From Janthinobacterium sp. Marseille (GTDB lineage Bacteria; Pseudomonadota; Gammaproteobacteria; Burkholderiales; Burkholderiaceae_D): a stretch of DNA of 64,000 nt. The notes beneath the pieces were generated by a model that saw nothing but the letters and a program-made list of their open reading frames with translations, was not told the origin of the DNA and did not search any database. Shown one piece after another: positions 8,976-48,939 of this stretch; positions within the stretch are counted from its first letter, which is position 1, and every line of letters begins with the position of its first letter. Location: NCBI RefSeq assembly GCF_000013625.1, contig NC_009659.1:868001-932000 (forward strand). The letters are read 5' to 3'. The translations under genes and the position numbers were made by a program.

Positions 8976-9790
8976 AACCTTCCGCTTATAGCCTGAGCCG
9001 TCCCGATGATCTCGCACAAGCGACCGCATTGCTGGCCGAAGGTGGCTGGGGCAGCAAAGCCGTCGCCGGTTGCCAGTCGCTGGGTGCGATGCTGAATTTG
9101 CGCCTGGCACAACCGGAGACGCTGCTTGACCTTGATGCATTTGAATCGCTGCGTGTAGTCAAGGATACCGGCGCTGCCATCCGCTTCGGTGCGATGACCA
9201 CGCATGCAGCCATCGAAGACAAGCGCGTACCTGATCCGAGCCAGGGTTTGATGCCGTTCGTCGCACGTGGCATTGCTTACCGTGCGGTGCGCAATCGCGG
9301 CACCCTCGGCGGCAGCCTGTGCCACGCCGATCCGGCTGCCGACTGGGTCAGCAGCATGCCTTTACTGGGCGCCACGCTGCACGTGCTTGGCCCTGCCGGC
9401 GAACGGGATATCGCGGCACGCGATTTCATGACTTCGGCCTACGAGACGCAACTGACGGACGGCGAAATACTGATCGCAGTCAGCGTGCCAAAACGCACGA
9501 CCGGCATGCGCTGGACGTATCACAAGCTCTGCCGCAAGACCGGCGAACTGGCACATGCGATGGCATCCGGCATGCGCGATAGCAGTGACGGTAGCGAACG
9601 CATAGTGTTGGGCGCGCTGGACGGCGCACCGTATGTGCTCGAACGCAGTGGCTTGATGACTGATTTATTGCAAGCAGCAGTACGTGAGGAGATCGTGATG
9701 CAGGCTGCACCCGATCTGGAACTTGATCGTCGCCTGACTCTGATTGAAATGTTGAGACTGGTGGCACTGGATATGGGAGCAACACGATGA
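8972..9790 (+). CDS. Molybdenum hydroxylase, FAD-binding medium subunit
   Basis: The 272-residue product is the CoxM/XdhB-type flavin subunit. KAVAGCQSLGAMLNLRLAQP near residue 28 and the paired motif AVRNRGTLGGSLCHADPAADW near residue 100 bind FAD in this family. It carries electrons from the iron-sulfur subunit to an acceptor. It starts within the stop region of the large-subunit gene, with AAGGAGGT upstream, and its own stop overlaps the next gene as ATGA, so the three subunits should be made together. Confidence 0.92.
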   Translation: MKPSAYSLSRPDDLAQATALLAEGGWGSKAVAGCQSLGAMLNLRLAQPETLLDLDAFESLRVVKDTGAAIRFGAMTTHAAIEDKRVPDPSQGLMPFVARGIAYRAVRNRGTLGGSLCHADPAADWVSSMPLLGATLHVLGPAGERDIAARDFMTSAYETQLTDGEILIAVSVPKRTTGMRWTYHKLCRKTGELAHAMASGMRDSSDGSERIVLGALDGAPYVLERSGLMTDLLQAAVREEIVMQAAPDLELDRRLTLIEMLRLVALDMGATR

Positions 9791-31335: not shown

Positions 31336-31964
31336 TGTTGATTTGCACCGAAAACTGACCCACGTATAGACCACAATCCTACTTCCCAAAGTGAGTGGGG
31401 AGATTGGAGTGATCGACGTGGCATTACTTGGAATTATTCGACGCTGGCACCTACGTGACTAGGTTTCATTGAGAGAGATATCCAGACGTTTAGGGATATC
31501 TAGAAATACCGTCAGACGCTACTTAAGGGCTGAATCAGTAGAGCCCTCGTACGCCAGCAGGCGATCCAGCACATCTCTAGACACCTATGCGCTAAAACTC
31601 TCTATCTGGTTAAAGATCGAGGCAGCGAAGTCGCGCAAACAAAAAAGGTCGTTGAAACAGATGCACATCGATCTGTGTGCACTGGGCTATGAAGGGTCTT
31701 ACGATCGCGTAGCTGCCTTTGCTAGGCAGTGGAAAGTGGATCAGTTCGAGAGAGGCAATTCAGCAAGCAAATCTACAACGTGAACTATGTATGAAAGATT
31801 CTGGATCAATTTGCATGTTGGTCCAGCGAATCTACTGTTTAGTTGGACATACTTTATCTGTCAGTTCGAACACTTTGATGACCACGTATGCAAATCTAAA
31901 CTCTGGAAACCTTTGTACGATAAATACATGAGATATATATAACTTTTTTGCATGCAATTCAACA
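31336..31964 (+). mobile_element. IS21-family remnant, copy 1
   Basis: The left end TGTTGATTTGCACCGAAAAC matches the left end of copy 2 (34915), and CAATTCAACA at 31955-31964 matches the outer right end of copy 2. Between them only a 5' istA fragment with a nonsense codon remains. The right end stops one base before the stop codon of the STAND gene. The right boundary rests on ten matching bases only. Confidence 0.65.
31409..31783 (+). pseudogene. istA fragment with an in-frame stop
   Basis: Translation from the GTG at 31409 gives MIDVALLGIIRRWHLRD and then a TAG at 31460, where copy 2 has CAG. The reading continues with the IstA helix-turn-helix REISRRLGISRNTVRRYLRAES and ends near KVDQFERGNSASKST, about 125 codons in all. 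The catalytic domain is missing. The gene is dead by both nonsense mutation and truncation. Confidence 0.85.
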
Positions 31965-31965
31965 C

Positions 31966-34782
31966 CTATGTTTTTTCTCCGAGTGACTCTACATTCCGGA
32001 CAATTCGGTCTAACGAAAGGAAAGTCATATTTTTGGAATCTATTGCAGACGTGACTTCTGATGAAGGTCCATACTTACGCAAGCTTCCGACCATGTCCTG
32101 TATTATTTTTATAGCCTCAACTCTTCCGTATAGTTTTTTTCTCTTTTTTGCGACGTCTTTTAAGAAGTGTGATAAGTCTTTGTTTCCATCATTGTTGGAT
32201 TTGTTTTTGGTAAGAATATTTGAAATTGAATAGCATGCCGCTTCAGCTTTTGTAAAAATAGGATCTGCAAAAGAGATATGCAACCGATCACAACACGTTG
32301 ACAGACCGTTAAGATACATTTTTGCATTTTCAACTGTAATCGATGAATTTTCTGATTCATCACTTAGGGCGTAACTGGCAAGTATTGCGTTTTCCAGTCT
32401 GTGATCCTGTATTCCTTCGCTGACTCCCCATTCAAAGTAAAATCCACGGTGGAAGGGTGGCTGATCGAAGTTTCTAAAGAGTTTTATTGCTTCGGCAGCA
32501 TTACCTTCCTTTCTATAGAAGGATGCCAATTTCGTTAGCAGATAGAAATTTGAAGAATCCTCTTCGTACAGGCTTTTAGTAATATCGATCGCCAATCTTG
32601 ATTTGCCAGAAGAAAATAATTGTTCAGCCATTTCATATTGCCAAAATGCGAGATTAATTACGTTTTCGAATTTTGCTCTGCGAGTTTCGGATAAAGCGAG
32701 ATCAAGGAAATATTGAGAGATATCTTCATTAAAGTTAGTTTCCAAAACTTCCACTAACGCTATCGCAATGTACTTGTGGCGAGTAAAGATATTGGTGGAG
32801 GTGCTTGTAGCTGCAGCTTCTTTTCCCAATTGTCTGATTACTTCACTTTGCAGTTTTGGAACACTCATTTCCAACAAAAATGCTAAGGCTGCGAAACTTA
32901 ATTTATCAAATCCTTCTGCGTGCATGGCTGCGATATAACCAAGCACGTCTTTAAGCGATTTCCCGCAATCAAGCTCCACTGATGCAAGTCTTTGTAGCAT
33001 TGACTCCGCGTGTTGTAGCAGGTCATTTCCATGACGAGAGACCAACAGAGCACCGAAGAAGGCATCGGCATTTCCTTTGGCCTCTTTTCTTGCGTGATGA
33101 CGTAGTTTATCCGCTCGCTCACCTGGAGGAAGAGCGGCGAGTTCTTCTCCTAATCCACGAGCCCCGAACTCTGCCCAAGCTTGGACGATTTTCTCCGCAT
33201 CCGGCCTACTTAAATCTTTGAGCACTATCTCTTTGAATTTTGAGCGGAAGCTCCACTCAAGTTGACTAGCACCTGATGATCGCCAGTCAGAATCCCTGCT
33301 TGCGAATAAAAAATCAATTCTTCCTTCGTATCCTGAGAAACCGGATTCGATAAAGCGTAAAACATCTTTCGCAATTTGATCGGCCTCATCTATTACTACT
33401 AACCAGTTGTTATGAGACTTAAATGATTCAAGCAGCTCTTCCCCATCAAATAAACGAGTGTGATTGGTTCTGTAAATAATTTTTTTGTTCGGGTCATTTT
33501 GCAGTATTTCCAAGCTCGCTTGAAACAATGCTGTCGTTTTTCCTTCGCATCCAGCTGCAAGTAAAACGCAAACGAGAGGCATAGTGGTTTCACTTCTATA
33601 ATTGCCAGATAATTTCCCTACAATTTCACGTCTTGGTATTGATGTTGAAAGAGCAGTTGCCCATGTTGGAGTTGCACCATCAAAATAAGCAATGCAATCT
33701 TCAATACTAAGTTTTTTGGTATGCCGTTCTAGAACATTTAGGTCTTTTATATCCCATCCCACCAAAGATTCGATTTTAGCTTTTGTTTTTTTGTTAATGA
33801 CATTTCTCGTCTTTGGTGCATCGAAAGTCCACCAGTCTGACAAGCGACTATCTTCGTGAAATCGGGTGCCATCTAAAGTCCAACATTGATTATCAAAACT
33901 CCAGTGATATGGCTGTAATGAAATGCTCTCTGCATCACCATCGAAGCGCCCCCACATAAATCCATTTTTCCATTTTCCACCTTCTGGGCACTGCCATGCA
34001 GCGCCTGCTTGGATGGCACAGAATTCACTAGGACCGTTGGTCAAACTAGAAAACCCTTCTGCATGCATATGACCATGCAGATAAATTGCTTTATGCTGTG
34101 CCAATACCGCTTGTACAGCTGATCTATGAGCTGGATGCAACCAGTCTAATGGATGATGACCAAGTACAATTTTGACTGAAGAGTTTTTTAAAGACGCCAA
34201 GGCATCGCGTACCAGCGGCAAGCCTGGTGTAAGCGATTCTTTATCTCTATCGCCATCGCACAACCACGCGGTATTTATTCCGACAATCCCGACAGTTTTT
34301 TGACTAACTGTTCGCTCTATTGCGAATGTGCCAGTTTCAAAAGAAAAATCAACTGCGTTGCCAGTAGGTATGTCATCACAGAAATTTTTGAATCTTTCAA
34401 CAAGCATGTTCCTGCCGTTTAACGATTCTTGGGTTGGATAAAAATGAGGCGAATCAGGCCGACCAAATTTTTCTTTGCTAAACCCATCGTTTTTGTTTCT
34501 ATCTAAATCATGATTTCCTGGAACGATAAATATGTTGTCGAGATAGTTTTCCCCAAACAAATCAACCAAGGGGGAAATTATTAAATTTTTAAATTTTTCG
34601 TATTCAGACTTTTTTCCTGAGTTAGCGACGTCCCCAGTAATGAAGACGAAATCTGGTTTTTGACCTTGTTGTACTTTTTCGGAAAGATGTTCGATCAACT
34701 TTGTTGAAGAATATTTTTGCTCGTAGTCTTGCTTGCCAAAATGAAAATCCGATAAATGTAACCAGTTAAATTTTTCAGACAT
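31966..34782 (-). CDS. Metallophosphoesterase-STAND NTPase, probable defence protein
   Basis: This 938-residue protein joins three parts. Residues 1-320 are a calcineurin-like metallophosphoesterase with DFHFG, GDVANSG, GNHD, GHHP and GHMH. Residues 400-600 are a P-loop NTPase with Walker A AGCEGKTTA (409-417), Walker B WLVVIDEAD (460-468) and ASRDSDWR (494-501). Residues 640-938 are helical and repeat-like (TPR type). The architecture (enzyme effector, STAND NTPase, sensor repeats) is that of bacterial conflict or antiphage proteins. The phosphoesterase may cleave nucleic acid or a nucleotide once triggered. It is flanked by IS21 remnants, and its base composition is AT-rich. No partner gene is needed for this layout. 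Confidence 0.8.
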   Translation of the reverse strand: MSEKFNWLHLSDFHFGKQDYEQKYSSTKLIEHLSEKVQQGQKPDFVFITGDVANSGKKSEYEKFKNLIISPLVDLFGENYLDNIFIVPGNHDLDRNKNDGFSKEKFGRPDSPHFYPTQESLNGRNMLVERFKNFCDDIPTGNAVDFSFETGTFAIERTVSQKTVGIVGINTAWLCDGDRDKESLTPGLPLVRDALASLKNSSVKIVLGHHPLDWLHPAHRSAVQAVLAQHKAIYLHGHMHAEGFSSLTNGPSEFCAIQAGAAWQCPEGGKWKNGFMWGRFDGDAESISLQPYHWSFDNQCWTLDGTRFHEDSRLSDWWTFDAPKTRNVINKKTKAKIESLVGWDIKDLNVLERHTKKLSIEDCIAYFDGATPTWATALSTSIPRREIVGKLSGNYRSETTMPLVCVLLAAGCEGKTTALFQASLEILQNDPNKKIIYRTNHTRLFDGEELLESFKSHNNWLVVIDEADQIAKDVLRFIESGFSGYEGRIDFLFASRDSDWRSSGASQLEWSFRSKFKEIVLKDLSRPDAEKIVQAWAEFGARGLGEELAALPPGERADKLRHHARKEAKGNADAFFGALLVSRHGNDLLQHAESMLQRLASVELDCGKSLKDVLGYIAAMHAEGFDKLSFAALAFLLEMSVPKLQSEVIRQLGKEAAATSTSTNIFTRHKYIAIALVEVLETNFNEDISQYFLDLALSETRRAKFENVINLAFWQYEMAEQLFSSGKSRLAIDITKSLYEEDSSNFYLLTKLASFYRKEGNAAEAIKLFRNFDQPPFHRGFYFEWGVSEGIQDHRLENAILASYALSDESENSSITVENAKMYLNGLSTCCDRLHISFADPIFTKAEAACYSISNILTKNKSNNDGNKDLSHFLKDVAKKRKKLYGRVEAIKIIQDMVGSLRKYGPSSEVTSAIDSKNMTFLSLDRIVRNVESLGEKT

Positions 34783-34914: not shown

Positions 34915-35881
34915 TGTTGATTTGCATCGAAAACTGACCCACTTAGCCGCATAATTTGCATCCAAAACTGACCCACGTTTAGAACACAATCCTACTTACC
35001 AAAGTGAGTGGGAGATTGGAGTGATCGACGTGGCATTACTTGGAATTATTCGACGCTGGCACCTTCGTGACCAGGTCTCTTTGAGGGAAATATCCAAACG
35101 ATTGGGTATCTCTCGAAATACCGTCAGGCGTTATCTACGCTCTGAAACTGTCGAGCCAGCCTATGCTGATCGACGTTCCCCGACTTCTCTCGACAAATAT
35201 GCGTTCAAGCTTTCGGCCTGGTTAAAGACCGGGGCAACAAAGTCACGCAAGCAACGACGGACTTTGAAACAGATGCATATCGATCTATGTGCATTGGGAT
35301 TTGAAGGGTCGTATGACCGGGTCGCAGCCTTCGCCAGACAGTGGAAGGTGGATCAGTTAGAGAGGGTCAATTCTGCGAGCAAATCAACACACAAGCGATC
35401 GAACATCACCAGTGCAGGGTTCGCTATTTCTCTACAGTTGAGTTGGTTAACATGTTGGAGCTGGAGAAGCAACAAGGCAAAGCTGGCCAACTTGCAATGC
35501 GTCTGCTTTATACCGACCTTGTGATTCTGGATGAGCTTGGCTACCTTCCATTTAGTCAGATAGGTGGATCACTTTTGTTTCATTTGATCAGCAAACTGTA
35601 TGAACGAACAAGTCTGATCATTACCACGAACCTTGGATTCTCTGAGTGGGGATCTGTGTTTGGAGATGCGAAAATGACGACAGCACTACTTGATCGACTG
35701 ACTCATCACTGCCATATTATTGAAACCGGAAACGACAGCTATCGCTTCAAGAATAGTTCAACTCAAGTAAATCAAAAGGAGATAGTGACCAGACTAACTA
35801 CGAGCTAACCTTAAAATTATATCAATAGAGTGGGTCAGAATTCGATGCAAAAGTCGGGTCAGCATTCGACGCAATTCAACA
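34915..35881 (+). mobile_element. IS21-family deletion derivative, copy 2
   Basis: The left end has two terminal repeats (TGTTGATTTGCATCGAAAAC at 34915 and TTTGCATCCAAAACTGACCC at 34954). The right end has two inverted copies (GTGGGTCAGAATTCGATGCA near 35830 and CAGCATTCGACGCAATTCAA near 35860). Such multiple terminal repeats are typical of IS21-family elements. At about 967 bp it is much shorter than a complete element of 2-2.5 kb because istA is joined to the end of istB. Confidence 0.85.
35021..35808 (+). pseudogene. istA-istB deletion remnant
   Basis: The 5' part (GTG at 35021) encodes about 120 residues of IstA with its helix-turn-helix. From about 35385 the reading continues in another frame as the C-terminal half of the IstB ATPase: [22 protein letters not shown], Walker [19 protein letters not shown], and [45 protein letters not shown]. 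The IstA catalytic domain and IstB Walker A are deleted. The breakpoint lies by AGCAAATCAACA, which is also where copy 1 diverges. Confidence 0.88.
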
Positions 35882-35961: not shown

Positions 35962-36975
35962 TTAATCGTTAATTAATTGCAATACTAATTTGTGCGAATC
36001 GATTGCCAATTGATTATCTGGTTCAATGTATAACCAAAAGGAAATTTTTCCGAGTAGTGAGTTTATGTAATTAGGATTTGAGATTTTTTTATTTGATAAA
36101 TGCGACACAAAACCGAATTTTCTTATGAAAAAAATTTCATTCTTTAATTCTCTCTTATATTCTCTTGGGATGCTGAGTCGCCCGTTTAAAATACCGATAC
36201 CCGTGACAATTCTCGTACCATTTTTCACCTTCAATCTTGTTTTATCTGTATTTACAACTAAACCATATTCATCCACTATTTTGGTGACTAACTTGCTGAA
36301 CGACGAATGAATGTGTTCTCCTGAAAATGTCAGATCATCTGCATACCTTGTGTAGGTTATCGAGCATTTTTTTGCTAGACGATCTAATCTTTTATCAAGA
36401 CTGGTTAAAACTATGTTGGATAGCGCAGGGCTAGTAGCAGCGCCCTGTGCTAGTTTCTCGTCGTAGCAACATAACGACGCTAGATAGTAGGCCACATTTG
36501 GCGCATATCCAATATCTTGAAATGTTTTGATAATCCAACTTAATGGAATGGAAGGGAAAAAATCTTTTAAATCCATCTTTAAAAGAGCTTTTCCATTTAT
36601 ATGTGCTAATGCGTTAGTCTTGATTGACTTTCCAGATCGAAAACCATGTGCGGCCGAATGGAGAGGTATGTTTTTTAGGATATTTTTTAGTATCCATTGT
36701 TGGCAAGTTAAAAGTGATTCATAGGGAGCTAATATTTCCCGTTTACCGCCGCTACGTTTTGGGATGGAAAACTTGCGGTAGAAGCTATGAGACGAAGCGA
36801 TCATTTTTGATAGGTATTCAATTTGAATGCCTAGTAAACTTGATAAATGATCTAACTCAAAAATAACTGGCTGATTTTTTTTTGACAAACATTCGATATA
36901 ACTTACATATTTATCAATGCGAGCAGTAGAAACTCCACGGTCTTCAAAATATGCGCGCCATTCGTTTGTTTTCAT
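35962..36975 (-). CDS. Retron reverse transcriptase
   Basis: The 337-residue enzyme carries the retron hallmarks: NALAH at residues 121-125 (NAXXH of region X), the catalytic YADD at 211-214 in YTRYADDLTFSG, and VTG at 257-259 in the Y region. KMDLKDFFPSIP (133-144) supplies the first catalytic aspartate, and QGAATSPALSN is motif B'. It has no fused effector domain. It lies directly downstream of the msr-msd RNA, which it would partly reverse-transcribe into a branched DNA-RNA hybrid, and of the winged-helix and PRTase-like genes. All key motifs are intact. Confidence 0.93.
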   Translation of the reverse strand: MKTNEWRAYFEDRGVSTARIDKYVSYIECLSKKNQPVIFELDHLSSLLGIQIEYLSKMIASSHSFYRKFSIPKRSGGKREILAPYESLLTCQQWILKNILKNIPLHSAAHGFRSGKSIKTNALAHINGKALLKMDLKDFFPSIPLSWIIKTFQDIGYAPNVAYYLASLCCYDEKLAQGAATSPALSNIVLTSLDKRLDRLAKKCSITYTRYADDLTFSGEHIHSSFSKLVTKIVDEYGLVVNTDKTRLKVKNGTRIVTGIGILNGRLSIPREYKRELKNEIFFIRKFGFVSHLSNKKISNPNYINSLLGKISFWLYIEPDNQLAIDSHKLVLQLIND

Positions 36976-36995
36976 AGGGATAAAAGATTTCAGGT

Positions 36996-37213
36996 AAGGG
37001 GATAGTACAACGCTACCTACTGTACGTTAGCTGCGATCACAACGCTAACATTTGTTCGGAACGAACAAATTTAGTGTTGTGATCAGTGATAATTGGCGTA
37101 GCCAATTTCACATTCCTGCAAATTTGATGTTTAAATTTGCAGGGGCTGGAAAAATTCAGCCTGAACAACCGGAGCGACACCACTCCTTAACACTAGCTAC
37201 TGGCTATCCCCTT
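36996..37213 (-). ncRNA. Retron msr-msd non-coding RNA
   Basis: The flanking inverted repeats are a1 AAGGGGATAG (complement of 37204-37213) and a2 CTATCCCCTT (complement of 36996-37005), a 10-bp match. Inside, in transcript order, are a GGAG/CTCC hairpin, a GCTG/CAGC hairpin, an 11-bp stem (CCTGCAAATTT pairing 37115-37125 with 37133-37143), a seven-base stem at 37091-37107, and a long msd hairpin at 37035-37084 (GATCACAAC, CTAA, ATTTGTTCG arms). TAGC at the a1 edge could contain the branching guanosine. The RNA ends 21 bases before the RT start, the normal retron order. The boundaries are approximate. Confidence 0.85.
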
Positions 37214-37235
37214 GTTGCCAAAGATAACATAAATT

Positions 37236-37580
37236 CTATTCCGCGAATACTTTGCTATCTAAACGGGAACACGATGGGATATATGGGTCGGTTGGTAAAA
37301 TTTGATAGGGGCGTTTCATCTGGTTAGGAATATGATTTTTCGGCACTTTGTTGTGTGTGCGGACAGCTAATAACTGTTTAATACCGTTAGGTGTAATGTG
37401 TAACCAGTCAGCATCAATCGTTAGTAGTCCATCAGTCTGTAAAGAAAAAATTACTTTGAGAAGATCTCCCATTGAAATCTTCAATTTTTTATAAAGCAAA
37501 TAAGTACTTGCCTTCCCCTTTTTTTCATAGATTTCTTTCAATATAAGAATGTCTATTTTTTGTATAGTCTGAGTGCGCAT
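37236..37580 (-). CDS. Winged-helix protein of the retron operon
   Basis: The 114-residue protein reads as a winged-helix DNA-binding protein: IDILILKEIYEKKGKASTYLLYKKLKISMGDLLKVIFSLQTDGLLTIDADWLHITPNGIKQLL. A basic tail follows. The ATG at 37580 follows the PRTase-like stop closely, with GGGAGA upstream, so the two genes are coupled. Its stop lies 22 bases before the a1 repeat of the msr-msd RNA. Within the retron it may regulate the operon or act with the PRTase-like effector. Confidence 0.8.
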   Translation of the reverse strand: MRTQTIQKIDILILKEIYEKKGKASTYLLYKKLKISMGDLLKVIFSLQTDGLLTIDADWLHITPNGIKQLLAVRTHNKVPKNHIPNQMKRPYQILPTDPYIPSCSRLDSKVFAE

Positions 37581-37581
37581 T

Positions 37582-38439
37582 TCAGTCTCCCATCCATCGT
37601 GTAAATAATGGCTTTCTAGCCGCTTTTGCGGTCCGTTCTGGCCACCAAAAAACTGGAAAGACATTATTGGAAATATTCTGGTCTTTTATGCCAAATAGAC
37701 TTTCAACTTTCCCATATCCCAAAGAGCAATCGCTTAAGTTGAGTTTTTTTACAACGGGTTCCAGGCGCCGCTCTATTTCTAACATCAAGTTAATTTTATG
37801 TTCGATGTTCTCTGAATCTTCATAGTCAGAGATGCCTCTATTAACCTTTTCTATGAACGTAAAATTTATGCCACTATCAGTCAAACAACGAACACCAACA
37901 ACCGATGCAAATACAGATTTAACTAGAACGTTTACTTCTTGATTAGCGTTGTGAAATTGACTTCTAATTGTTTGAACTCGGCCAACTGCTGTTCGTCCGG
38001 AACCAACAAATTCATCGACTAAAATTATATTATTTCTAGTGAAATTGCTATTCTTAGAATGTCTAAACGCAACTCCAAAAGTATTGACGATTTCTACATT
38101 TCCCCAGCCCGCATCTTGTAGCTTGCCCTTGATATGATGCACAAGATACTGAGAGCTATCTGCGCTTGAATCGGCAGCCATCGCTGCCACAATGGTATTT
38201 TCTGGTTGAATATCAGGGGTAGTGACGATATCCAATACAAGTGAGTTTATGTTCTCTACAAATTGTTCCGCAGTAATAAACATAAATCTATCAAGTAAAT
38301 CAGTAATCAAACCAAATTCGTCTTCACTTTGACAATCTTCGAAAAGTAAGTCGCCTAATTGATCTGACTTGTCTTTTAACCAGTCGTGTTTACAAATTAG
38401 GCCCATCACGACGGAAAATTCTCCCTTGGATAAATTCAA
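37582..38439 (-). CDS. Phosphoribosyltransferase-like retron effector
   Basis: The central IILVDEFVGSGRTAVGRV (residues 138-155) matches the PRPP-binding loop of type I phosphoribosyltransferases (hydrophobic run, D-E, small-GxT). The N-terminal part (TTPDIQPENTIVAAMAADSS) and the C-terminal part (SDCSLGYGKVESLFGI) are not enzymes I recognise. PRTase-like proteins occur as effectors in bacterial conflict systems. The start is uncertain: TTG at 38439, or GTG 38409 or ATG 38406 with AAGGGAG before them. A run of eight G residues on the coding strand sits just upstream. Confidence 0.78.
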   Translation of the reverse strand: MNLSKGEFSVVMGLICKHDWLKDKSDQLGDLLFEDCQSEDEFGLITDLLDRFMFITAEQFVENINSLVLDIVTTPDIQPENTIVAAMAADSSADSSQYLVHHIKGKLQDAGWGNVEIVNTFGVAFRHSKNSNFTRNNIILVDEFVGSGRTAVGRVQTIRSQFHNANQEVNVLVKSVFASVVGVRCLTDSGINFTFIEKVNRGISDYEDSENIEHKINLMLEIERRLEPVVKKLNLSDCSLGYGKVESLFGIKDQNISNNVFPVFWWPERTAKAARKPLFTRWMGD

Positions 38440-38747
38440 CAGCCCCCCCCAGATTCTTTAAAATTTACCGACGCAGCAATCTTATAGTTTTTATGGTCGA
38501 CAGCATTTCGATCGACATTTTGGATATATTGATTCCAATTAAATTAATTATTAGGACCTCAACTCTCCCATTGTTTCGATAAAGCGAAGTATGTTTTAAG
38601 TCTAAAGATTAAATTAAAATGGATAAAGAAAAACCGCCAAGGTTGCGCATTGTTAAGAGGCGTGGCGGTTATGTTGAAACAAAGATAACCCAAATTTTTG
38701 GATATCGCAAGTAAGATACTATCAGTGGTACTAAGATGTTTTATTTC
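38440..38747. other. AT-rich gap between the retron and the HAD gene
   Basis: It contains eight consecutive C residues (38443-38450; G on the coding strand of the retron effector). It also has a hairpin with arms AACCGCC and GGCGGTT (near 38631-38670) and a 31-codon open frame on the plus strand (38619-38714, beginning MDKEKPPRLRIVKRRGG). I do not claim that the short frame is a gene. The retron promoter should lie here. Confidence 0.5.
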
Positions 38748-39377
38748 TTAAAGCGGAATAGAGAGTAATTCATCAAGCTTGCTTATACTTTCAGCCATTT
38801 GACTTTCACAACTTCTGTTGAGATGGAGCGCATGCATTCCAAAGCTGCGGGAACCCAGATAATCTTCCTCTAATGTGTCACCAATCATCAAGACCTCATT
38901 CGGCATGCAATGCAGGGCTTCGCATAATTTTTGATAGATTCTTTCCTCAGGTTTTATAGCCCCTACCTCAAAACTCCAGGCATAAGCATCAAGTTCAAAG
39001 GGCAATAGCTCCTTTACAGGTTTTGCGTAGGGAGTAGCCAAATTCGAACACAATCCAATCTTGTAACCAGCCTCTTTTAAACTATTTAATGTAAAAAGTA
39101 CTTCTGGATACAATGTGATTGTCGATAGCTCTGACATCAATTCCTTTTCAAGTAATGAGATTTCCTCAGGCGAGAGGTTCATGTCAAATAATGATGGGAC
39201 GTTGGAGAATGCAATATTGGTAGACATTAGAAGCTCAGCGTCTTTGAGGTCTTTCTCTCTACCTGCCTTATAGATTTTTTGCATAAGTTGTTTATAAGGG
39301 CGTCGTTTATCGCCAATTTCAACTATTGTGCCAAACACGTCAAATGCTACTGCCCTGATACCATTTAATTTAGTCAT
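38748..39377 (-). CDS. HAD-superfamily hydrolase
   Basis: The 209-residue protein has the HAD motifs in order: AVAFDVFGTIVE (motif I, nucleophile D and following D replaced by F-G-T pattern of the DxFGT class), GLCSNLATPY (motif II), the lysine in VGAIKPEERIYQKL (motif III) and MIGDTLEEDYLGSRSFGM (motif IV). It looks like a small-molecule phosphatase or dehalogenase-type member. It lies downstream of tniQ and reads in the same direction, so it is cargo of the transposon. The substrate is unknown. Confidence 0.88.
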   Translation of the reverse strand: MTKLNGIRAVAFDVFGTIVEIGDKRRPYKQLMQKIYKAGREKDLKDAELLMSTNIAFSNVPSLFDMNLSPEEISLLEKELMSELSTITLYPEVLFTLNSLKEAGYKIGLCSNLATPYAKPVKELLPFELDAYAWSFEVGAIKPEERIYQKLCEALHCMPNEVLMIGDTLEEDYLGSRSFGMHALHLNRSCESQMAESISKLDELLSIPL

Positions 39378-39473: not shown

Positions 39474-40118
39474 TTATCGATGTCGATTTTCACGCTGTTG
39501 CTTCCTTTCCTTTCGCAGTGTCCAATCACTAAGAAAATTAAGAGAGTATTGCCTTTTATCCGCAATGGCTTCAGTTACTTCGTCTGGATTATTCATGCTA
39601 AGGAATGTCGGTTCACAAGTGCTCAAATCAAATCCGCAGGAGCATGTTTTTGGACATCTGCGATGCCAGGTTAAGGGCCATTGGCATTGTGGACAAACGC
39701 GTACGAGATCACATCGATGAACTGGACAAATATCAATTAACTTCAAAGACCATATTTTGCGAAGATATGGTTTATCAGCAAGGCAGTGTGGACAGGTTGC
39801 GCTACCTTCCCCTCGATATATAAGAGAAGGCAAGTAAAGGTCTTCTGTGAAATATACCTTTATGCATTCAATTGTTTTGACTTGCCGATAGGCACTTACA
39901 CCTTCAGGTAAGGTAATTCCCAATGCGTTCATATAGCTATTGAATAGTTCGGGTGAGCGCCATGAGGGCGATAGTCCTTGCTTTAAGGGTTCCTTGCCAT
40001 TTTTGTCTTTGAATTGCAGCAGGTATCGAACCTTCTCCAGTCCATTTAACGAGGCTGCGCGCAAAAAGATACTGGAAGGCGATTCATCTATTTGTGGGAT
40101 AGGTTTAACGATCAGCAT
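39474..40118 (-). CDS. tniQ: TniQ-family transposon targeting protein
   Basis: The 214-residue protein begins MLIVKPIPQIDESPSSIFLRAASLNG, the start of TniQ proteins. It has the zinc-finger cysteines in SATCPHCLADKPYLRKIWSLKLIDICPVHRCDLVRVCPQCQWPL and CSCGFDLSTCEP. It is much shorter than Tn7 TnsD, so it probably provides a general targeting adaptor between TnsC and an unknown attachment sequence or protein. It overlaps the tnsC stop and has GGGAG upstream. Confidence 0.88.
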   Translation of the reverse strand: MLIVKPIPQIDESPSSIFLRAASLNGLEKVRYLLQFKDKNGKEPLKQGLSPSWRSPELFNSYMNALGITLPEGVSAYRQVKTIECIKVYFTEDLYLPSLIYRGEGSATCPHCLADKPYLRKIWSLKLIDICPVHRCDLVRVCPQCQWPLTWHRRCPKTCSCGFDLSTCEPTFLSMNNPDEVTEAIADKRQYSLNFLSDWTLRKERKQQRENRHR

Positions 40119-41125
40119 GCATTTCTCCCTTTCAATTTCTTATCGCCTAAGGCGATCGCCAGTTTTTGTGGGGATAAACGAAATGGGTTGTCATGGAGCA
40201 CAGCAATCGGGAGTGTGATGCCAGAGTCGAATGCTGTGGCAAAGTCTTCTTGGTCGACTGCTGCACGTCCTGAAGTTAAAGTGGTATAGATCGCCTTCTT
40301 CAATAGCGCCGAGATAAACGCAGGATTGCCGGCCGTAGCGGCCCACATTTGCTGAACATGAACTGGCTTATGAAAATCAATCATCCCATCGAGGTTTAGC
40401 TCTTTCCCATATTTTTGACTGAGAGCGCGTAGGAACCCGCCGAGCGGACCTGGTTCTTCTGAAGTACCTATATCCAATGGCGATAGTCTATGACGATGCA
40501 TGAAGCGTCGAGACATCTGGCTATCGAAATTCACCAATGCTTCGCACGAGGGAGTACCAATAAGGCAAACCATTACACCGGTATTGTTGATAAGCGACTT
40601 AAGCCAATTGCAAATTTTGTGAGTGCGCTTCTCATTAATACTACCCTCAAGTAACAAATGATGAAATTCATCCAATAGGATAGTTTTGGTCTGACATTGC
40701 TTAAGCAGTTTGTATAGGCGACCCGTTAGGACATGTGCACTCCCTTTTTTCGGAAAAGGATCGCCCAGACTTTCGAGTAAATTGGCTGCAAGCGATTTGA
40801 TTGTCGAAGGCGATGGTACCGATGAATAGAAAGCTGGCCGAACGTTGGTCGTGGATAACTCATCCTCTACGACATATGTGGAAAACCGTTTCACGATCAT
40901 ATTGCAGATAGATGTCTTCCCCATGCCACCGGAACCTATTAGTAAGGCCCCTGAGGGCTCCTTGCTGGTATCTGACATTGTTATACATTCGAGCAAACCT
41001 TCATAGGCACTCGTCATCGATGGATAGGTAATAATTACATTGTCCAGACGGTTAATCTTTTCATAGATTTCGTAAGAGTCACTGAATGGGGTATTGGTAG
41101 TGGAGGAAATATTAGTTTTCGTCAT
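40112..41125 (-). CDS. tnsC: TnsC/TniB-type AAA+ ATPase
   Basis: The protein of about 337 residues is the transposition regulator ATPase. Walker A GSGGMGKTS lies near residue 66, Walker B TILLDEFHHLL near residue 153, and sensor VCLIGTPSCEAL with an arginine-rich SRRFMHRHRL follows. ATG at 41125 is preferred because AAGGA lies eight bases upstream; a start at 41131 would be too close to it. It links TniQ-marked target DNA to the TnsA/TnsB transposase. Confidence 0.92.
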   Translation of the reverse strand: MTKTNISSTTNTPFSDSYEIYEKINRLDNVIITYPSMTSAYEGLLECITMSDTSKEPSGALLIGSGGMGKTSICNMIVKRFSTYVVEDELSTTNVRPAFYSSVPSPSTIKSLAANLLESLGDPFPKKGSAHVLTGRLYKLLKQCQTKTILLDEFHHLLLEGSINEKRTHKICNWLKSLINNTGVMVCLIGTPSCEALVNFDSQMSRRFMHRHRLSPLDIGTSEEPGPLGGFLRALSQKYGKELNLDGMIDFHKPVHVQQMWAATAGNPAFISALLKKAIYTTLTSGRAAVDQEDFATAFDSGITLPIAVLHDNPFRLSPQKLAIALGDKKLKGRNAC

Positions 41126-41136
41126 TGGCATATTCC

Positions 41137-43083
41137 TTATATTTCGATAGTTTCGAAAGCGTTATCTCGGATGCTTTTAACAGACGAAAGGGAATGATCT
41201 TCTGTAATATCTGAATGAAGACGAGAACTAGAGTTCGAAGGTTGATTATCAATAGTGTCGACAGGAAGAACAGCATTTCTCATCTTCACTTTTGTATCTT
41301 CGATTTGTGCTTTTTCTAATGACTTGAGTTTCCGTGTGCTTTTACTGTTGGGTAACTTGTGGATAGTGTTCCAAAGTCGCCATCGCGCAATTTCGTGAGC
41401 ATGCACGCCGAGCTCGTCGCGGTCATTCTGTGATAGCTTTGCAAGTTCTTCCTGAACTTTTTGATGTTCATATTTTGTGAGCTTGTTTGCGTAGTTTTGT
41501 TTTACACAATCTGCTCGTATTAATGACCGAGGCTGACCGTCTATCGAGACATAGACATATTCGAGATTCATTTCATCGACCATGACTGTGACATTCTGTT
41601 GGCCACGCATTTCAAAAGTAGCTAACGCATCCGATTTATACGCAAGGTTATCGACGATGACTCTTCCGTTACTGATCTTGCGGCGATATGAGATACGTGC
41701 GATCGCATCTAGGTCTTCTTTTGCATATGAAAGAATGGGCATTTCGGCCTGTTTGTCTCGCCAGGAAAGTGCTGGAGCACGATTTGTTACAGAGTGAATG
41801 GCTTGGTGGTAGGTTTCTTCGAGCCATTGCTTAAAGTAAGAACGAAGATCCTCCAGACTGATCGAAGCGTTGGCTACCGAGTCATAGTCGCCCCTTTGAG
41901 TGGGAGACGAAAATGTGGAACCTTTCAAAATATGAACTAGCTGCGTACACAGTGTGCGGAAGAAGCGTTCTAGAAATGCCTTGTCGTCCGGGCAGTATGT
42001 TTTTGATGACTGGACATGAATTTCCAGCTTGGATAGCAAGTTTCGCAGAGCATTGCTTACCAGGTCTGGGCCGTTGTCTGTAATTATTGTTTCAGGCACA
42101 CCCCCCGGGCCACTCAAAGGATCTCGGCTACACATATCTTTGATTGCAGCTAATGCCGTAGTTGAACAGAAGGGGATTAGGCTAATATGCCACCCGACAA
42201 CGGCTCGGGTGTGGACATCAAATAGACATACTAGATATGGGCGACCCAATGCCTCGCCAGTTTCTTTGTCAATCACAATAACGTCCATTCGATGCCCATC
42301 CATCATTACCAACTCCATCAGACGAGATGTTTCTGTGGATGCGCCGGCCGCACGAAACCGTAGATCGGCATATCGCTTACCGTTGCGTTTCAACGCTTTG
42401 ATATATGGGTCAAGTTCGTTGATTCGTCGGTATATCGTGCGAGAGCTTGGTAGAGAAATTTCTGCAGGCTTGAATCCGTATTCCAGCGCCCGGCCAATTA
42501 CATTTGCATGTACTTGTCGAACCGTGGGACGTGCCGAAGTCAGGAAATCATCCCGAATGGCGATGTTGATAATATGTTCGACATCAATAGAAAAGCGTTT
42601 TTGCCTATAGCCTTTCTCCGCATGCCGTGGGACCAACGACGTAACATCGCATCCTGAAGAGATAAATCGCTGAATCCAGCGCGATAAAGTACTTATGCCA
42701 GGACGAGCTGTACTCTCATTTGCTGAGAATACTGTTTCGATTGCACGTTTGAGATTTTTACGGCTATGAACGCGTTGTGTGCAACGCATCGCTTCTTGGA
42801 CGAACTTATATCGAGACAGCATCTGCTCTCGTTCGGTATCGCTTAAACGTGAAACAGCATAGCCATTCTCAAGAGATGGAACATTATGTGATTTATCTAG
42901 AAATCCTACGACGCCACTATCTACGAATTCCCAGAAGGCTGTAGTTGGCATGGTATGAATTCTGCCGCCAGCGCAGGCTGCATAGCGAACATTCACCGCA
43001 TCGATGAATGTAATCTCGAAGGCTTGGTTTTTGAGGGAAAACCGCGTACCGATACTCAGTCTTTGAGGTAAAAGGCCAGTCAT
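41137..43083 (-). CDS. tnsB: TnsB/TniA-type DDE transposase
   Basis: The 648-residue transposase has N-terminal helix-turn-helix regions (ISTLSRWIQRFISSG, SSRTIYRRINEL). Its RNase H-fold catalytic core has D262 in LVMMDGHRMDV, D336 in IITDNGPDLVS and E372 in DKAFLERFFRTL, and a mu-type C-terminal domain follows. It cuts the 3' strand and joins the transposon to target DNA. Its start overlaps the tnsA stop by four bases. The catalytic triad is intact, so the enzyme could be active. Confidence 0.93.
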   Translation of the reverse strand: MTGLLPQRLSIGTRFSLKNQAFEITFIDAVNVRYAACAGGRIHTMPTTAFWEFVDSGVVGFLDKSHNVPSLENGYAVSRLSDTEREQMLSRYKFVQEAMRCTQRVHSRKNLKRAIETVFSANESTARPGISTLSRWIQRFISSGCDVTSLVPRHAEKGYRQKRFSIDVEHIINIAIRDDFLTSARPTVRQVHANVIGRALEYGFKPAEISLPSSRTIYRRINELDPYIKALKRNGKRYADLRFRAAGASTETSRLMELVMMDGHRMDVIVIDKETGEALGRPYLVCLFDVHTRAVVGWHISLIPFCSTTALAAIKDMCSRDPLSGPGGVPETIITDNGPDLVSNALRNLLSKLEIHVQSSKTYCPDDKAFLERFFRTLCTQLVHILKGSTFSSPTQRGDYDSVANASISLEDLRSYFKQWLEETYHQAIHSVTNRAPALSWRDKQAEMPILSYAKEDLDAIARISYRRKISNGRVIVDNLAYKSDALATFEMRGQQNVTVMVDEMNLEYVYVSIDGQPRSLIRADCVKQNYANKLTKYEHQKVQEELAKLSQNDRDELGVHAHEIARWRLWNTIHKLPNSKSTRKLKSLEKAQIEDTKVKMRNAVLPVDTIDNQPSNSSSRLHSDITEDHSLSSVKSIRDNAFETIEI

Positions 43084-43769
43084 TGCACCACCTCTATCAA
43101 GGTATGTTGACTAATAGGTTGATCCATCCGGCAACGTAGTCCACCGACGAACAACGTGGCTTCGAGTAGATAAGCCGGAAGTCTATTTGCATGTATAGCA
43201 AGTCGGAGTGCTGCCAATGTCCAGCACTTATGCGCAAACTCCTTTACTAGAGAAACAACCCATGTCATTAGGCTTTTGCTGATGCCTAAACGGCCTCCGC
43301 GGTCATAAAGCATTGCCCAGTTTGATTTCTCGATCGGAGTTGGTAGGTCTTGTTCAGTTACTACCGCATATTCCAGGTTATGTTGTGCGAACAACGCCAT
43401 GAGATAACTGGTTTTCAGGGTGGTTCTGTCGGAGTCAACAAATGCCGAGTGCTTTACCTCTCTTATGTAAGCATTGCCTTTGCGATCAAAAATCAGGAAA
43501 TCAGGATGTAGTGTGGTACTACGGTAAGGTACGGCGAGTGCTTGCGTTCGATAGAAAGCTACTTGCGGATCTGCTTCCAATTGGTAGCAAAAGTCTCGTT
43601 CCAATCTAGATTCTACTGGGATGAATGCCTGATTCTTTTCGCTATAGAAAAGAGACGCACGTGAACCGTGCTTGCCTTGTCTTATTTTTCGGCTTCCATG
43701 AATGATGCCGTCGAGTCCCGGCGAGCGCTGACGTGCAGCTTCTATTTGCTTGCTTAGTATTTGTTCCAT
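43080..43769 (-). CDS. tnsA: TnsA-type transposon endonuclease
   Basis: This 229-residue protein has the TnsA nuclease core: a glutamate in VESRLERDFCYQLE (near residue 57), an aspartate in LHPDFLIFD (near 90), and the E-x-K of YIREVKHSAF (104-106). TnsA cuts the 5' strand, making Tn7-like cut-and-paste possible rather than replicative cointegrate formation. ATG at 43769 has GGAGTAAG before it; a longer frame starts at 43793. The C-terminal half (SWVVSLVKEFAHKCWTLAALR) would contact TnsC. Confidence 0.9.
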   Translation of the reverse strand: MEQILSKQIEAARQRSPGLDGIIHGSRKIRQGKHGSRASLFYSEKNQAFIPVESRLERDFCYQLEADPQVAFYRTQALAVPYRSTTLHPDFLIFDRKGNAYIREVKHSAFVDSDRTTLKTSYLMALFAQHNLEYAVVTEQDLPTPIEKSNWAMLYDRGGRLGISKSLMTWVVSLVKEFAHKCWTLAALRLAIHANRLPAYLLEATLFVGGLRCRMDQPISQHTLIEVVQ

Positions 43770-43803
43770 TCTTACTCCAATTTTTGGATGCAAAAATCCA
43801 TTT

Positions 43804-45539: not shown

Positions 45540-45589
45540 GATTGCAGTTTCATTGACACTTACTAATAAACCTATTGACGCCTATCCCG

Positions 45590-46693
45590 ATGTCCTTGCC
45601 TGTCCCTGATCTTGTTGAATTCGCTGATGCAGCCCTTGCTGCTGACTACAGCCGCCTGCGCCGAGTTGGTCAGCGCATATCGAAAGCCATTGAAATTGAA
45701 GATCCTGAAGGTGCTCGCAGATTTCGTCTTGTTCTAAATAAAAAAGGTGTTCCATTACAAGCTTCAGGTTTCGTCGAGATGCTTCCGGTTGACAATAAAT
45801 CTAGACTGCCGTTGATCGAAGAGCAGCCTTGGCCTGATGCACCTCTTTTCTTGGATGACGCTGGTAACGAGCAATTTGCATCATTTCTTACAGACATTAA
45901 GCATCATGAGAAATTAGCCGCAGCAGGCATCGCATCTAAGCATTCTCTGATGCTTGCAGGCCCTCCTGGTACTGGCAAAACCTTACTTGCTGGTCATGTG
46001 GCGGCTCAGCTCGGCCGAAAACTATATGTGGTTCGTCTTGACTCACTAATTTCTTCCCTCTTGGGAGATACCGCAAAAAATATAAGAAGCGTCTTCGACT
46101 TTGTCGCGGGTAAGGATGCTGTGCTTTTTTTGGATGAACTTGACGCTGTGGCTAAGATGCGAGACGACCGTGCCGAATTAGGGGAGTTAAAGCGTGTAGT
46201 TAATACGGTCATCCAAGGCATCGACTCTTTGGATGCATCTGCCGTCATAATTGCGGCTACGAACCATGCCCAAATGCTTGACAGCGCCATTTGGCGACGC
46301 TTTCATTACAAAATTATTTTCACCCTTCCAGATTTCGATCTGCGGACAGAACTATGGTCGTATTTCTTGCAGCTTGGCCCTGAACACTCGTTAACGTGTC
46401 GCATACTCAGTTGTCTATCAAGTGGGCAATCAGGTGCAGATATCGAACAATGGGCTTTTGCGGCGCGGAGGCGCTCAGCCCTAGCTTCACAACCCATTGA
46501 TGCGGTTGCGATAGCAGAGTCCTTGACCGTAGAGAATTATAAGATCCCAACTACAGCACACGGAAAAAGCAACGAGCCACGTCGTCGTATTACTCGAGAA
46601 CTTGTGACTAATCACAATATATCCCAAGCAGATGTTGGAAGATTTTTAGGCATCAGCCGCCAAGCAGTTTCTTCATATTTGAAGGTCACATAA
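45590..46693 (+). CDS. IetA-like AAA ATPase (defence)
   Basis: The protein of about 367 residues is an AAA+ ATPase with Walker A AGPPGTGKTLLAG (near residue 124), Walker B AVLFLDELDAV (near 180), sensor IIAATNHAQMLDSAIWRRFHY and arginine finger. Its C terminus has a helix-turn-helix NHNISQADVGRFLGISRQAVSSYLKV. It overlaps the subtilase gene by one base. AAA ATPase plus subtilase is the ietAS antiphage pair. ATG at 45590 is chosen over a TTG at 45575; neither has a clear ribosome binding site. Confidence 0.85.
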   Translation: MSLPVPDLVEFADAALAADYSRLRRVGQRISKAIEIEDPEGARRFRLVLNKKGVPLQASGFVEMLPVDNKSRLPLIEEQPWPDAPLFLDDAGNEQFASFLTDIKHHEKLAAAGIASKHSLMLAGPPGTGKTLLAGHVAAQLGRKLYVVRLDSLISSLLGDTAKNIRSVFDFVAGKDAVLFLDELDAVAKMRDDRAELGELKRVVNTVIQGIDSLDASAVIIAATNHAQMLDSAIWRRFHYKIIFTLPDFDLRTELWSYFLQLGPEHSLTCRILSCLSSGQSGADIEQWAFAARRRSALASQPIDAVAIAESLTVENYKIPTTAHGKSNEPRRRITRELVTNHNISQADVGRFLGISRQAVSSYLKVT

Positions 46694-48939
46694 TGCCTAC
46701 AGAAGCTCGCCCCGTACTGAATCCGGTCCTGTCATTAAAACGCGACCCACGACGCGTTAGCGTGACGGGGCGATCTGCTAATGAAAAACAAGTGGATGTG
46801 TCACGCTTGGCAATCCAAAGACATAAACTTTCCGAGCAAATTTTGAGTTTTGAAGAACAGACTGCTCGGTATCATGCTGGAAAATTACTAGTTGCGGTCA
46901 AGATGTATGACGATTCCTTGGCTCCGAGCTATGAGCCGGAATCCATTTTTAGAGAAACTCTAGGATCAGAGCTTATCGCACCGATTAATGGTGGATATCT
47001 TGCCCAACTGGATCATCGAGCTTTAAAGAATATATCCAAGATCGTCCGAGAAAGTGCAACGACAGATGTGCGCGTTACTGTCTCGCGCATTGAAAGCATT
47101 TCAATCCCTACAGAAGTTGATGTTTTACGTGGACGAACGGTTCAATCACTTTGGGATCATGCGATCCAAGACGATAGGGGGCGAGTTTTCACTTTGTGGT
47201 TAGCTCCATATAGTGAAAACATGGCCCGCTCAGAGGTTGCTGCCCAGATCGGGGAATTCGCAGGTGCTCAGGATATTTACTCTCTTGCTGATCTTGTGGC
47301 CATCACACGGGAGCAAGGATCAGACGCGGATCAATTACAAGTTCAGAACAGCCAAGCATCTGCAAGCATTATTCGCGCAATAAGGGAATACCGTCAAAAC
47401 CCTTTCACGCGAATGCAATTTGTCGCACGTAATCCTACGGCGCTCATTCGACTGGTCAATTCCGGCGCTGTGTTCCGAATTGAGCCTGTGAGAGCATTGA
47501 AGGCGGCCGACATACCTTCCGCACCAGATCCTGATCGCCCGGTGCCAGACGAACAATGGCAACCCATTGTCGGTGTGGTGGACGGTGGTCTATTTGCCCA
47601 GACATACGCCCCGATGGTTGCGTGGCGGGCGCCGTCCCTAGTGTCAGACATCGCGGCGAACCGCAAGCATGGCAACAGGGTTGGCTCCTTGGTCGTGCAC
47701 GGTTCGGCATGGAATACGCACTTGACGCTGCCATCTTTGGTATGTCGGATTGGGGTTGCGCAAGCCATCGCAAAGGACGACGCAGGTTCTGCGACCCGCA
47801 CCGCATTTCGAAGCTATTTGCATTCCGTAATTGCTCGGCACCACGGCGATACTAAGGTTTGGAATTTTTCGTTCAACGAACCGGTTGATGGTGCTGATCA
47901 TTTGGAAATGAGCGAGCTGGGTCATGAAATACATAAGATTGCGAGGGAATTTGACATTCTGCCGGTTATATCGATCGGTAACGTTGATCAACACAACAAC
48001 CGGCGCTTGAATCCCCCCGCGGATTGTGAAGCTGCCTTAACGGTCGGTGGCCGCATTCAGGAAGATTCGCTGCCTGGAGCAGCATGCGTTTCATGTTTAC
48101 CTGGTCCAGGGCCCGAAGGACTGATGAAGCCAGAAGTTTCTTGGTTTTCTACACTGCGGGGACTCGGCGGGAATCTGGAAACTGGCAGCAGCTATGCGAC
48201 CGGGATTGTTTCCGCTGTAGCTGCACATACTTTCCACCAATTGAGATCGCCCACGCCGGATTTAGTTAAAGCGCTACTGATTAATACTGCGGACGGGAAT
48301 GTGCACGACAACAGGCTGGGTTGGGGATCGCCTTGTCTGAAATCTCCAACGCCTTGGGAATGTCCAGAAGGAAGTGTGACCTTGATTTGGACGTCTAATC
48401 TGCGAGCGGGTCTTTGGCATTATTGGGAAGACATCCCTATACCCCCTGAGTTCATTACTGAGAATAAACTTAAAGGTAGCGTTGCACTAACAGCCATTCT
48501 GCGACCTAAGGTATCTGAATTAGGTTCTGCGAATTATTTTTCGACGCGCTTGCAAGTGGCATTGCAATATACAAAGCCTAATGGAAAAATGGGAAACTTG
48601 GCTGGATCCATGAAAGAAAGCACGGATCGGGAAGCCCAAGCGCGTGCCGAGCATGCAAAGTGGAATCCGATTCGACATCATGCGACAAATATTCCTGGAG
48701 GAAAAGTCTTCAGCGGCCGCACCTTACGGGTGTGCGCTCGAGTTTTTGGGCGTGACCTATATCAGTTCGGAATACGCAGTAATGCTGAGATTGAAGAAAG
48801 TTCGGTTGCTTTTGCTCTGACCTTGAGCGCACCACCCGGAAAAACTAGCTCTTCGATATATAACTCTGTTGCAGCAAGCTTAGGGAACTATGTGGAGAGC
48901 GCATTGAATGACATCGAAGTCAACGTGCCCAACTCATAG
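46693..48939 (+). CDS. IetS-like subtilase (defence)
   Basis: This 748-residue S8-family protease has the catalytic aspartate in VGVVDGGLFAQ (D297), histidine in RKHGNRVGSLVVHG (H326), oxyanion asparagine in SIGNVD (N430) and serine in ETGSSYATGIVSAVA (S500). About 290 residues before the protease domain are family-specific. No signal peptide is present, so it acts in the cytoplasm. It is coupled to the AAA ATPase gene by a one-base overlap. The ATPase may control or feed the protease during infection. Confidence 0.87.
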   Translation: MPTEARPVLNPVLSLKRDPRRVSVTGRSANEKQVDVSRLAIQRHKLSEQILSFEEQTARYHAGKLLVAVKMYDDSLAPSYEPESIFRETLGSELIAPINGGYLAQLDHRALKNISKIVRESATTDVRVTVSRIESISIPTEVDVLRGRTVQSLWDHAIQDDRGRVFTLWLAPYSENMARSEVAAQIGEFAGAQDIYSLADLVAITREQGSDADQLQVQNSQASASIIRAIREYRQNPFTRMQFVARNPTALIRLVNSGAVFRIEPVRALKAADIPSAPDPDRPVPDEQWQPIVGVVDGGLFAQTYAPMVAWRAPSLVSDIAANRKHGNRVGSLVVHGSAWNTHLTLPSLVCRIGVAQAIAKDDAGSATRTAFRSYLHSVIARHHGDTKVWNFSFNEPVDGADHLEMSELGHEIHKIAREFDILPVISIGNVDQHNNRRLNPPADCEAALTVGGRIQEDSLPGAACVSCLPGPGPEGLMKPEVSWFSTLRGLGGNLETGSSYATGIVSAVAAHTFHQLRSPTPDLVKALLINTADGNVHDNRLGWGSPCLKSPTPWECPEGSVTLIWTSNLRAGLWHYWEDIPIPPEFITENKLKGSVALTAILRPKVSELGSANYFSTRLQVALQYTKPNGKMGNLAGSMKESTDREAQARAEHAKWNPIRHHATNIPGGKVFSGRTLRVCARVFGRDLYQFGIRSNAEIEESSVAFALTLSAPPGKTSSSIYNSVAASLGNYVESALNDIEVNVPNS

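Follow-up and report, generated by a model that had tools for sequence, protein, structure and literature searches.

The locus described here is a type III-A retron, complete-looking and a fresh example of an already named kind. It runs from 38439 to 35962 on the minus strand of the window, by which we mean the whole 64,000-nucleotide stretch of Janthinobacterium sp. Marseille that was analysed, and comprises, in this order, genes for a phosphoribosyltransferase (PRTase) and a winged-helix (WH) protein, an msr-msd RNA and the gene of a retron reverse transcriptase (RT), with all frames open (Table 1). At a probability of about 0.78 we favour the reading that the RT, the RNA and its msDNA would hold a PRTase toxin inactive via the WH protein until a phage releases it. 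The order of the four elements had been proposed, with the right coordinates, in a first-pass annotation, and its filing of the locus under type III is supported by PADLOC III-A matches for the RT, the PRTase and the WH protein and by an RT clade with support of 97/94. Of the traits of a type III-A retron, the RT group, the RT motifs, the upstream PRTase, the WH partner and an msr-msd RNA with a1/a2 repeats were all found, and the genes and the RNA are conserved as one unit.

Table 1. Features of the retron and its surroundings (positions in the window).
Feature	Position	Strand	Length, basis or remarks
Metallophosphatase-nSTAND protein (calcineurin-like phosphoesterase + nSTAND NTPase)	31966-34782	-	938 aa; matches candidate defence models
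Second copy of IS21-like HTH part	about 31380-31780	+	by eye
IS21-like element pieces beyond RT gene end	35021-35808	+	IstB match at 35341-35808
Retron reverse transcriptase	35962-36975	-	337 aa; RT_III-A, RVT_1, tree
msr-msd noncoding RNA, a1 to a2	36996-37213	-	218 nt; fold and covariance model
a2 repeat	36996-37005	-	perfect 10-bp complement of a1
Long msd hairpin adjoining a2	37035-37084	-	fold prediction
Conserved msr hairpin	37171-37186	-	pairing kept in 22 relatives
a1 repeat	37204-37213	-	perfect 10-bp complement of a2
WH partner gene	37236-37580	-	114 aa; WH_III-A match
PRTase-like effector gene	37582-38439	-	285 aa, TTG start; PADLOC, Pfam, AlphaFold2
Eight-G run directly preceding the TTG of the PRTase; possible ribosome-binding site	38443-38450	-	sequence
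abiF RNA (RF03085)	38632-38669	-	46.5 bits, cut-off 37; about 190 nt before PRTase
HAD protein	38748-39377		
Tn7-like module: TniQ, TniB/TnsC-like, TnsB-like, TnsA-like genes	39474-43793	-	
IetA/IetS defence pair (AAA ATPase + subtilase)	45575-48939	+	

The RT matches the PADLOC profile RT_III-A with 476.9 bits, compared with 274.8 bits for the best other type (XIII), and Pfam RVT_1 with an E value of 3.9e-23, being the sole RVT_1 match in the single-contig genome of 4,110,251 bases. Its NALAH, YADD and VTG motifs are intact, as had been claimed, and in an alignment with four relatives the key columns are invariant (N121, A122 and H125, YADD at 211-214, T258 and G259). The closest RT with a solved structure is that of Retron-Eco1/Ec86, a type II-A retron (7v9u, 7v9x; E 6e-40). 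Placed in a tree of 93 rows (91 of them different), as the first-pass annotation had suggested, the RT falls into a clade of 31 rows with the support given above, and all rows of this clade have a PRTase match; 30 had been labelled beforehand as PRTase-bearing and L093 was found by profile (E 9.7e-8). That profile matches 38 of the 125 fetched loci, some of them mutual copies, including all 30 other rows of the clade, although most matches are its own builders: 29 of the PRTases of the clade built the profile or copy its builders, and L093 did not. Outside the main clade a PRTase is carried by L041 and L046, and L045 matches the profile as well (E 9.8e-14). On the RT tree the PRTase label changes three times, at least two of these changes being forced, which counts against a single origin and against the main reading.

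Relatives keep the order PRTase, small gene, gap and RT according to tblastn, open reading frame layouts and the PRTase profile, and this layout was found in Pseudomonadota, Bacteroidota, Campylobacterota, Cloacimonadota and viral contigs. The gap before the RT spans 180-290 nt in all but four of 34 rows, the exceptions being L016, whose start was taken too early in this layout, L031, L041 and L044. Compared with type III-A retrons in general, the locus has the same gene set, order, RT group and RNA before the RT, and no difference of kind; it is a diverged member, its RT sharing no more than 57% identity with the relatives compared. When genomes were drawn evenly from the same class, RT_III-A was matched at E <= 1e-60 in four of 369, the retron's own included. 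In two of these four, L004 and L005 (open frames of 559 and 579 aa), no PRTase was seen, but their loci are short and extend about 1500 and 600 nt upstream of the RT. A search of 60 relatives, including 12 further genomes from the genus, found this PRTase in its own genome only; the locus is therefore rare and was probably acquired.

The 260-nt gap between the WH and RT genes folds at -96.3 kcal/mol (z -7.3), and none of 200 shuffles folds as well. Both RNA elements that the first-pass annotation had described were recovered: the a1/a2 repeat forms a perfect helix of 10 bp, whereas a perfect helix of at least 10 bp between the outer 60 nt was reached in only 5 of 1000 dinucleotide shuffles, and the fold predicts the long msd hairpin next to a2. 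An inner GCUA/UAGC could, by eye, add four pairs beyond a 6x6 loop, which the best fold does not use. Conservation of the a1/a2 pairing in homologous loci, on which the earlier reading had been made to depend, was evaluated with 24 of 31 sequences, after dropping L024, L031, L040 and L044 (hairpin unrecognised) and the near copies L002, L007 and L027; L041, L042 and L045 and the duplicates L026, L028 and L043 had been left out beforehand. In these sequences, with kinship uncorrected, the mean duplex energy is -26.5 kcal/mol with the own partner and -15.2 kcal/mol with foreign ones; the own duplex is stronger than the mean of the row's foreign pairings in all 24 sequences, and in 12 of them it is stronger than any foreign pairing. 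The duplex of the window has -23.6 kcal/mol and is equalled or surpassed by six of 46 foreign pairings, which counts against the main reading.

A covariance model of the msr, likewise among the checks suggested earlier, was built from 22 other loci with the window left out; up to an E value of 10 its sole match in the window is at 37127-37212 (45.2 bits, E 2.9e-8). In the 22 relatives 99.2% of the cells of the msr hairpin are paired. Two-sided changes affect 24 cells, as against 7.8 in shuffles, and covariation scores 0.54, as against 0.29; none of 500 shuffles reached either value. Of the six pairs, four show a two-sided change, a number that 61 of 500 shuffles equalled, while the count of further pair types was reached by all 500. 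The rows had been chosen for having the hairpin, which is present in 27 of 31, and this choice favours pairing. In an Rfam scan no family matched the msr-msd RNA.

The PRTase matches PADLOC PRTase_III-A with 300.7 bits and Pfam PRTase-CE with an E value of 3e-23. According to the AlphaFold2 model (pLDDT 95.7, pTM 0.89), the predicted fold of the effector is that of a type I PRTase. A Foldseek comparison with solved structures gave five matches at E <= 0.001, namely a hypothetical Neisseria protein, one OPRT and three UPRT chains, followed in the list by HGPRT chains with a TM by query of about 0.3, and from the aligned lengths the termini do not seem to belong to the core fold. Among viral structures the top match is a siphovirus protein of the PRTase-CE family (E 8.6e-7). 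Searched as a sequence profile against solved structures, the PRTase gave weak matches alone, with a best E value of 0.084. Invariant in 29 of 29 aligned PRTases are D94, D142, F144, G146, G148, G241, N255, P262, W265 and R281, among them the PRPP-loop residues D142, G146 and G148; the second acidic residue of the loop is E or D in 28 of the 29 and N in L016. The loop itself, ILVDEFVGSGRT, is similar to what we take to be the PRPP-loop pattern of type I PRTases. Two further motifs are shared in the alignment, ADSS around D94 and NxPNxVFPxFWW close to the C-terminus.

A single base separates the PRTase stop from the ATG of the WH gene at 37580, the mechanical open reading frame start at 37664 being too early, and the two genes are therefore probably translated together. 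The WH protein matches WH_III-A of PADLOC (65.5 bits, E 1.1e-18), and also positions 293-387, in the C-terminal part, of a 393-position PRTase_III-A profile (E 1.7e-4), so PRTase and WH may be one chain in some members; here the two proteins are likely to act as one unit. With Pfam PF24409 (wHTH-PRTase_assc) it scores 14.6 bits, below the cut-off of 27. Few relatives were found by tblastn with the WH protein of the window (L017 and its copy L043, L024, L029 and L098), and a WH profile built from 29 rows, the window and 28 others, finds other relatives by construction, matches L042 weakly (E 0.028) and found no WH in L041, L045 and L093; the scarcity in tblastn and the absence in these three loci count against the main reading. 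In the remaining relatives the WH assignment rests on position and on the profile built from those same rows. Most of the aligned WH proteins end with a YxP-type motif (YIPN or similar).

A tripartite toxin-antitoxin logic is known from better-known retrons, and by analogy it probably applies to this one as well. The effector of Retron-Eco1 is nucleoside deoxyribosyltransferase-like and is joined to a winged helix; the likeness to our locus lies in the winged helix that accompanies the effector, the difference in the effector itself, which is a PRTase here. The same tripartite logic of retrons is set out in PMC12548924, and the Retron-Eco1 effector is described as depleting NAD (PMC12774641). 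In our proposal the msd part of the 218-nt RNA would serve the RT as template for msDNA, a step that we consider very probable. RT, RNA and msDNA would then bind the PRTase through the WH protein and keep it inactive, with the WH protein as the likely adaptor that links the candidate toxin and the msDNA stem, a role like that of the winged helix in the Eco1 effector. A phage that disturbs the msDNA or the RT would free the PRTase, which would upset PRPP or nucleotide pools, and the infected cell would stop growing or die before phage release. Possible substrates would be PRPP, nucleotides by pyrophosphorolysis, or NAD-like compounds; that PRPP-dependent chemistry is the toxic act has, in our estimate, somewhat less than an even chance.

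Retrons have been sorted into 13 types, with Retron-Bpu1 and Retron-Ppe1 assigned to III-A (PMC12548924). In the account given there, Retron-Bpu1 makes RT-DNA in E. coli and conferred no protection from 12 E. coli phages, and Retron-Ppe1 could not be transformed into E. coli, for which the authors presume toxicity. The RT-DNA and the presumed toxicity count for the main reading and the lack of defence counts against it. The passages on Retron-Sda1 in the same source report an RT like that of III-A1 together with an RNA, as in our locus, but a HipA/DUF3037 partner in place of the PRTase and WH, both of which the window retron has. PRTases are named as probable retron effectors with an unknown mode of action (PMC9122126) and as effectors yet to be characterised (PMC13158370), in agreement with the remark in the first-pass annotation that their action against phages is poorly understood. 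A DprA-PRTase pair of P2-like phages is described as giving defence (PMC9122126); like our retron it would use a PRTase as presumed effector, but its sensor is thought to be DprA, and that description mentions neither an RT nor an RNA. The literature searched, which mostly excluded subscription papers, contained no worked-out effector chemistry or phage trigger for type III-A.

Two other readings were weighed against this mechanism. Regulators of the PurR kind combine a winged helix with a PRTase domain that binds PRPP without catalysis, and PRTase and WH together might form such a PRPP sensor, tuning retron expression or host purine genes with no toxin involved. The adjacency of the two genes and their match to one longer PADLOC profile would suit a regulator, and Pur operon repressor chains occur among the weak profile matches of the PRTase (E 0.63-0.64, not significant). 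After the hypothetical protein, however, the best structural matches are the enzymes OPRT, UPRT and HGPRT, the second acidic loop residue is kept as E or D in all but one of the aligned PRTases, and toxicity is presumed for Retron-Ppe1, which belongs to this type as well, so that we hold a regulator without a toxin to be unlikely.

Slightly less probable still is a decayed or silent copy, whose genes are open and which yields neither msDNA nor defence. An a1/a2 helix of 10 bp, where many relatives have a longer one, would be in keeping with this, as would the TTG, a weak start codon, the lack of a clear promoter and the IS21-like pieces next door. A promoter-site scan found two promoter-like sites where 5.8 were expected from shuffles, none of them before the PRTase on its strand. 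The short helix, the TTG start and the promoter result also count against the reading as a phage-released PRTase toxin. Against decay stand the three intact frames, the RT and PRTase motifs that are kept, the strong RNA fold and the msr covariance match. The eight-G run before the TTG could vary in length.

Around the retron extends a defence island of low GC content, which also holds the metallophosphatase-nSTAND protein, the HAD protein, the neighbouring Tn7-like module and IetA/IetS (Table 1). GC is 37-47% between 32 and 46 kb, 49-50% just beside and 52-60% elsewhere in the window. In a 16S comparison with the plasmid collection the best named matches were Burkholderia and its relatives, at about 92%. 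The TnsA-like gene scores 24.4 bits, just below the Pfam cut-off of 26.5, and a 10-base exact search for Tn7-like terminal inverted repeats found none in the stretches tried. Carriage of retrons has been described for 50 Tn7-like transposons (PMC8649781), and our retron may be cargo of such an element.

Upstream of the PRTase lies an abiF RNA, adjacent to the retron but separate from it. As a part of type III-A retrons it was rejected, for none of the 32 other loci with a PRTase-profile match reaches the gathering score; 28 of the 32 give a fair test, fewer than 200 nt being available before the PRTase in L002, L006, L037 and L044, and one RT is shared by L002 and L019. The toxin gene of an AbiF system, Abi_2, has no match at E <= 0.001 in the whole genome. 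Three of 13 genomes of the genus, the retron's own included, have an abiF RNA, and none of these three has Abi_2. In a genome of the same family (G389) an Abi_2 gene has beside it, with contig and strand shared, two abiF-like matches that narrowly miss the cut-off of 37 (36.9 and 35.2 bits). A further species from the genus (locus L136 of G375) has an orphan abiF RNA at 9650-9687 on the minus strand, and by eye its copy shares a promoter-like stretch before the RNA with that of the window.

The 18-base core of the abiF RNA is exact in 112 viral stretches (L146-L257), 80 of them distinct in context. Pfam Abi_2 matched none of 50 of these records, hand-picked to avoid look-alikes, none rated 90% complete and many of them fragments, and phmmer with one Abi_2 seed gave no match in 80 phage loci. 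Six of 12 hand-picked viral core loci pass the abiF score. The stems that flank the viral core covary: a stem of at least six pairs is present in 64 of 79 contexts, compared with a mean of 18.1 and a maximum of 26 in 200 shuffles in which the 3' arms were exchanged. A tRNA gene lies within 300 nt of the core in 17 of 80 contexts, on the same strand in all 17 (6.3 expected). Compared with the phage collection, the abiF stretch of the window itself matched 78 records, with a best E value of 2e-3 and nearly all listed at 0.09 or worse. One cyanophage abiF RNA is published and three more phage members in Rfam are mentioned (PMC9964418), and an abiF-motif RNA has been shown to act as an RNA antitoxin in C. 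difficile (PMC12373285). Only tentatively, since we put it at well below even odds, might the window RNA belong to a class of stand-alone, toxin-less abiF-like antitoxin RNAs, common in phage contigs and sometimes beside tRNA genes, that would act as decoys neutralising HEPN toxins of the AbiF/AbiD type.

The surrounding nSTAND-phosphoesterase, Tn7-like genes and IetAS fit known defence-island cargo. The retron locus is ordinary in kind, and its interest lies in the mechanism of type III-A retrons; compact and complete, with its RNA mapped and its effector modelled at high confidence, it offers concrete residues to test.
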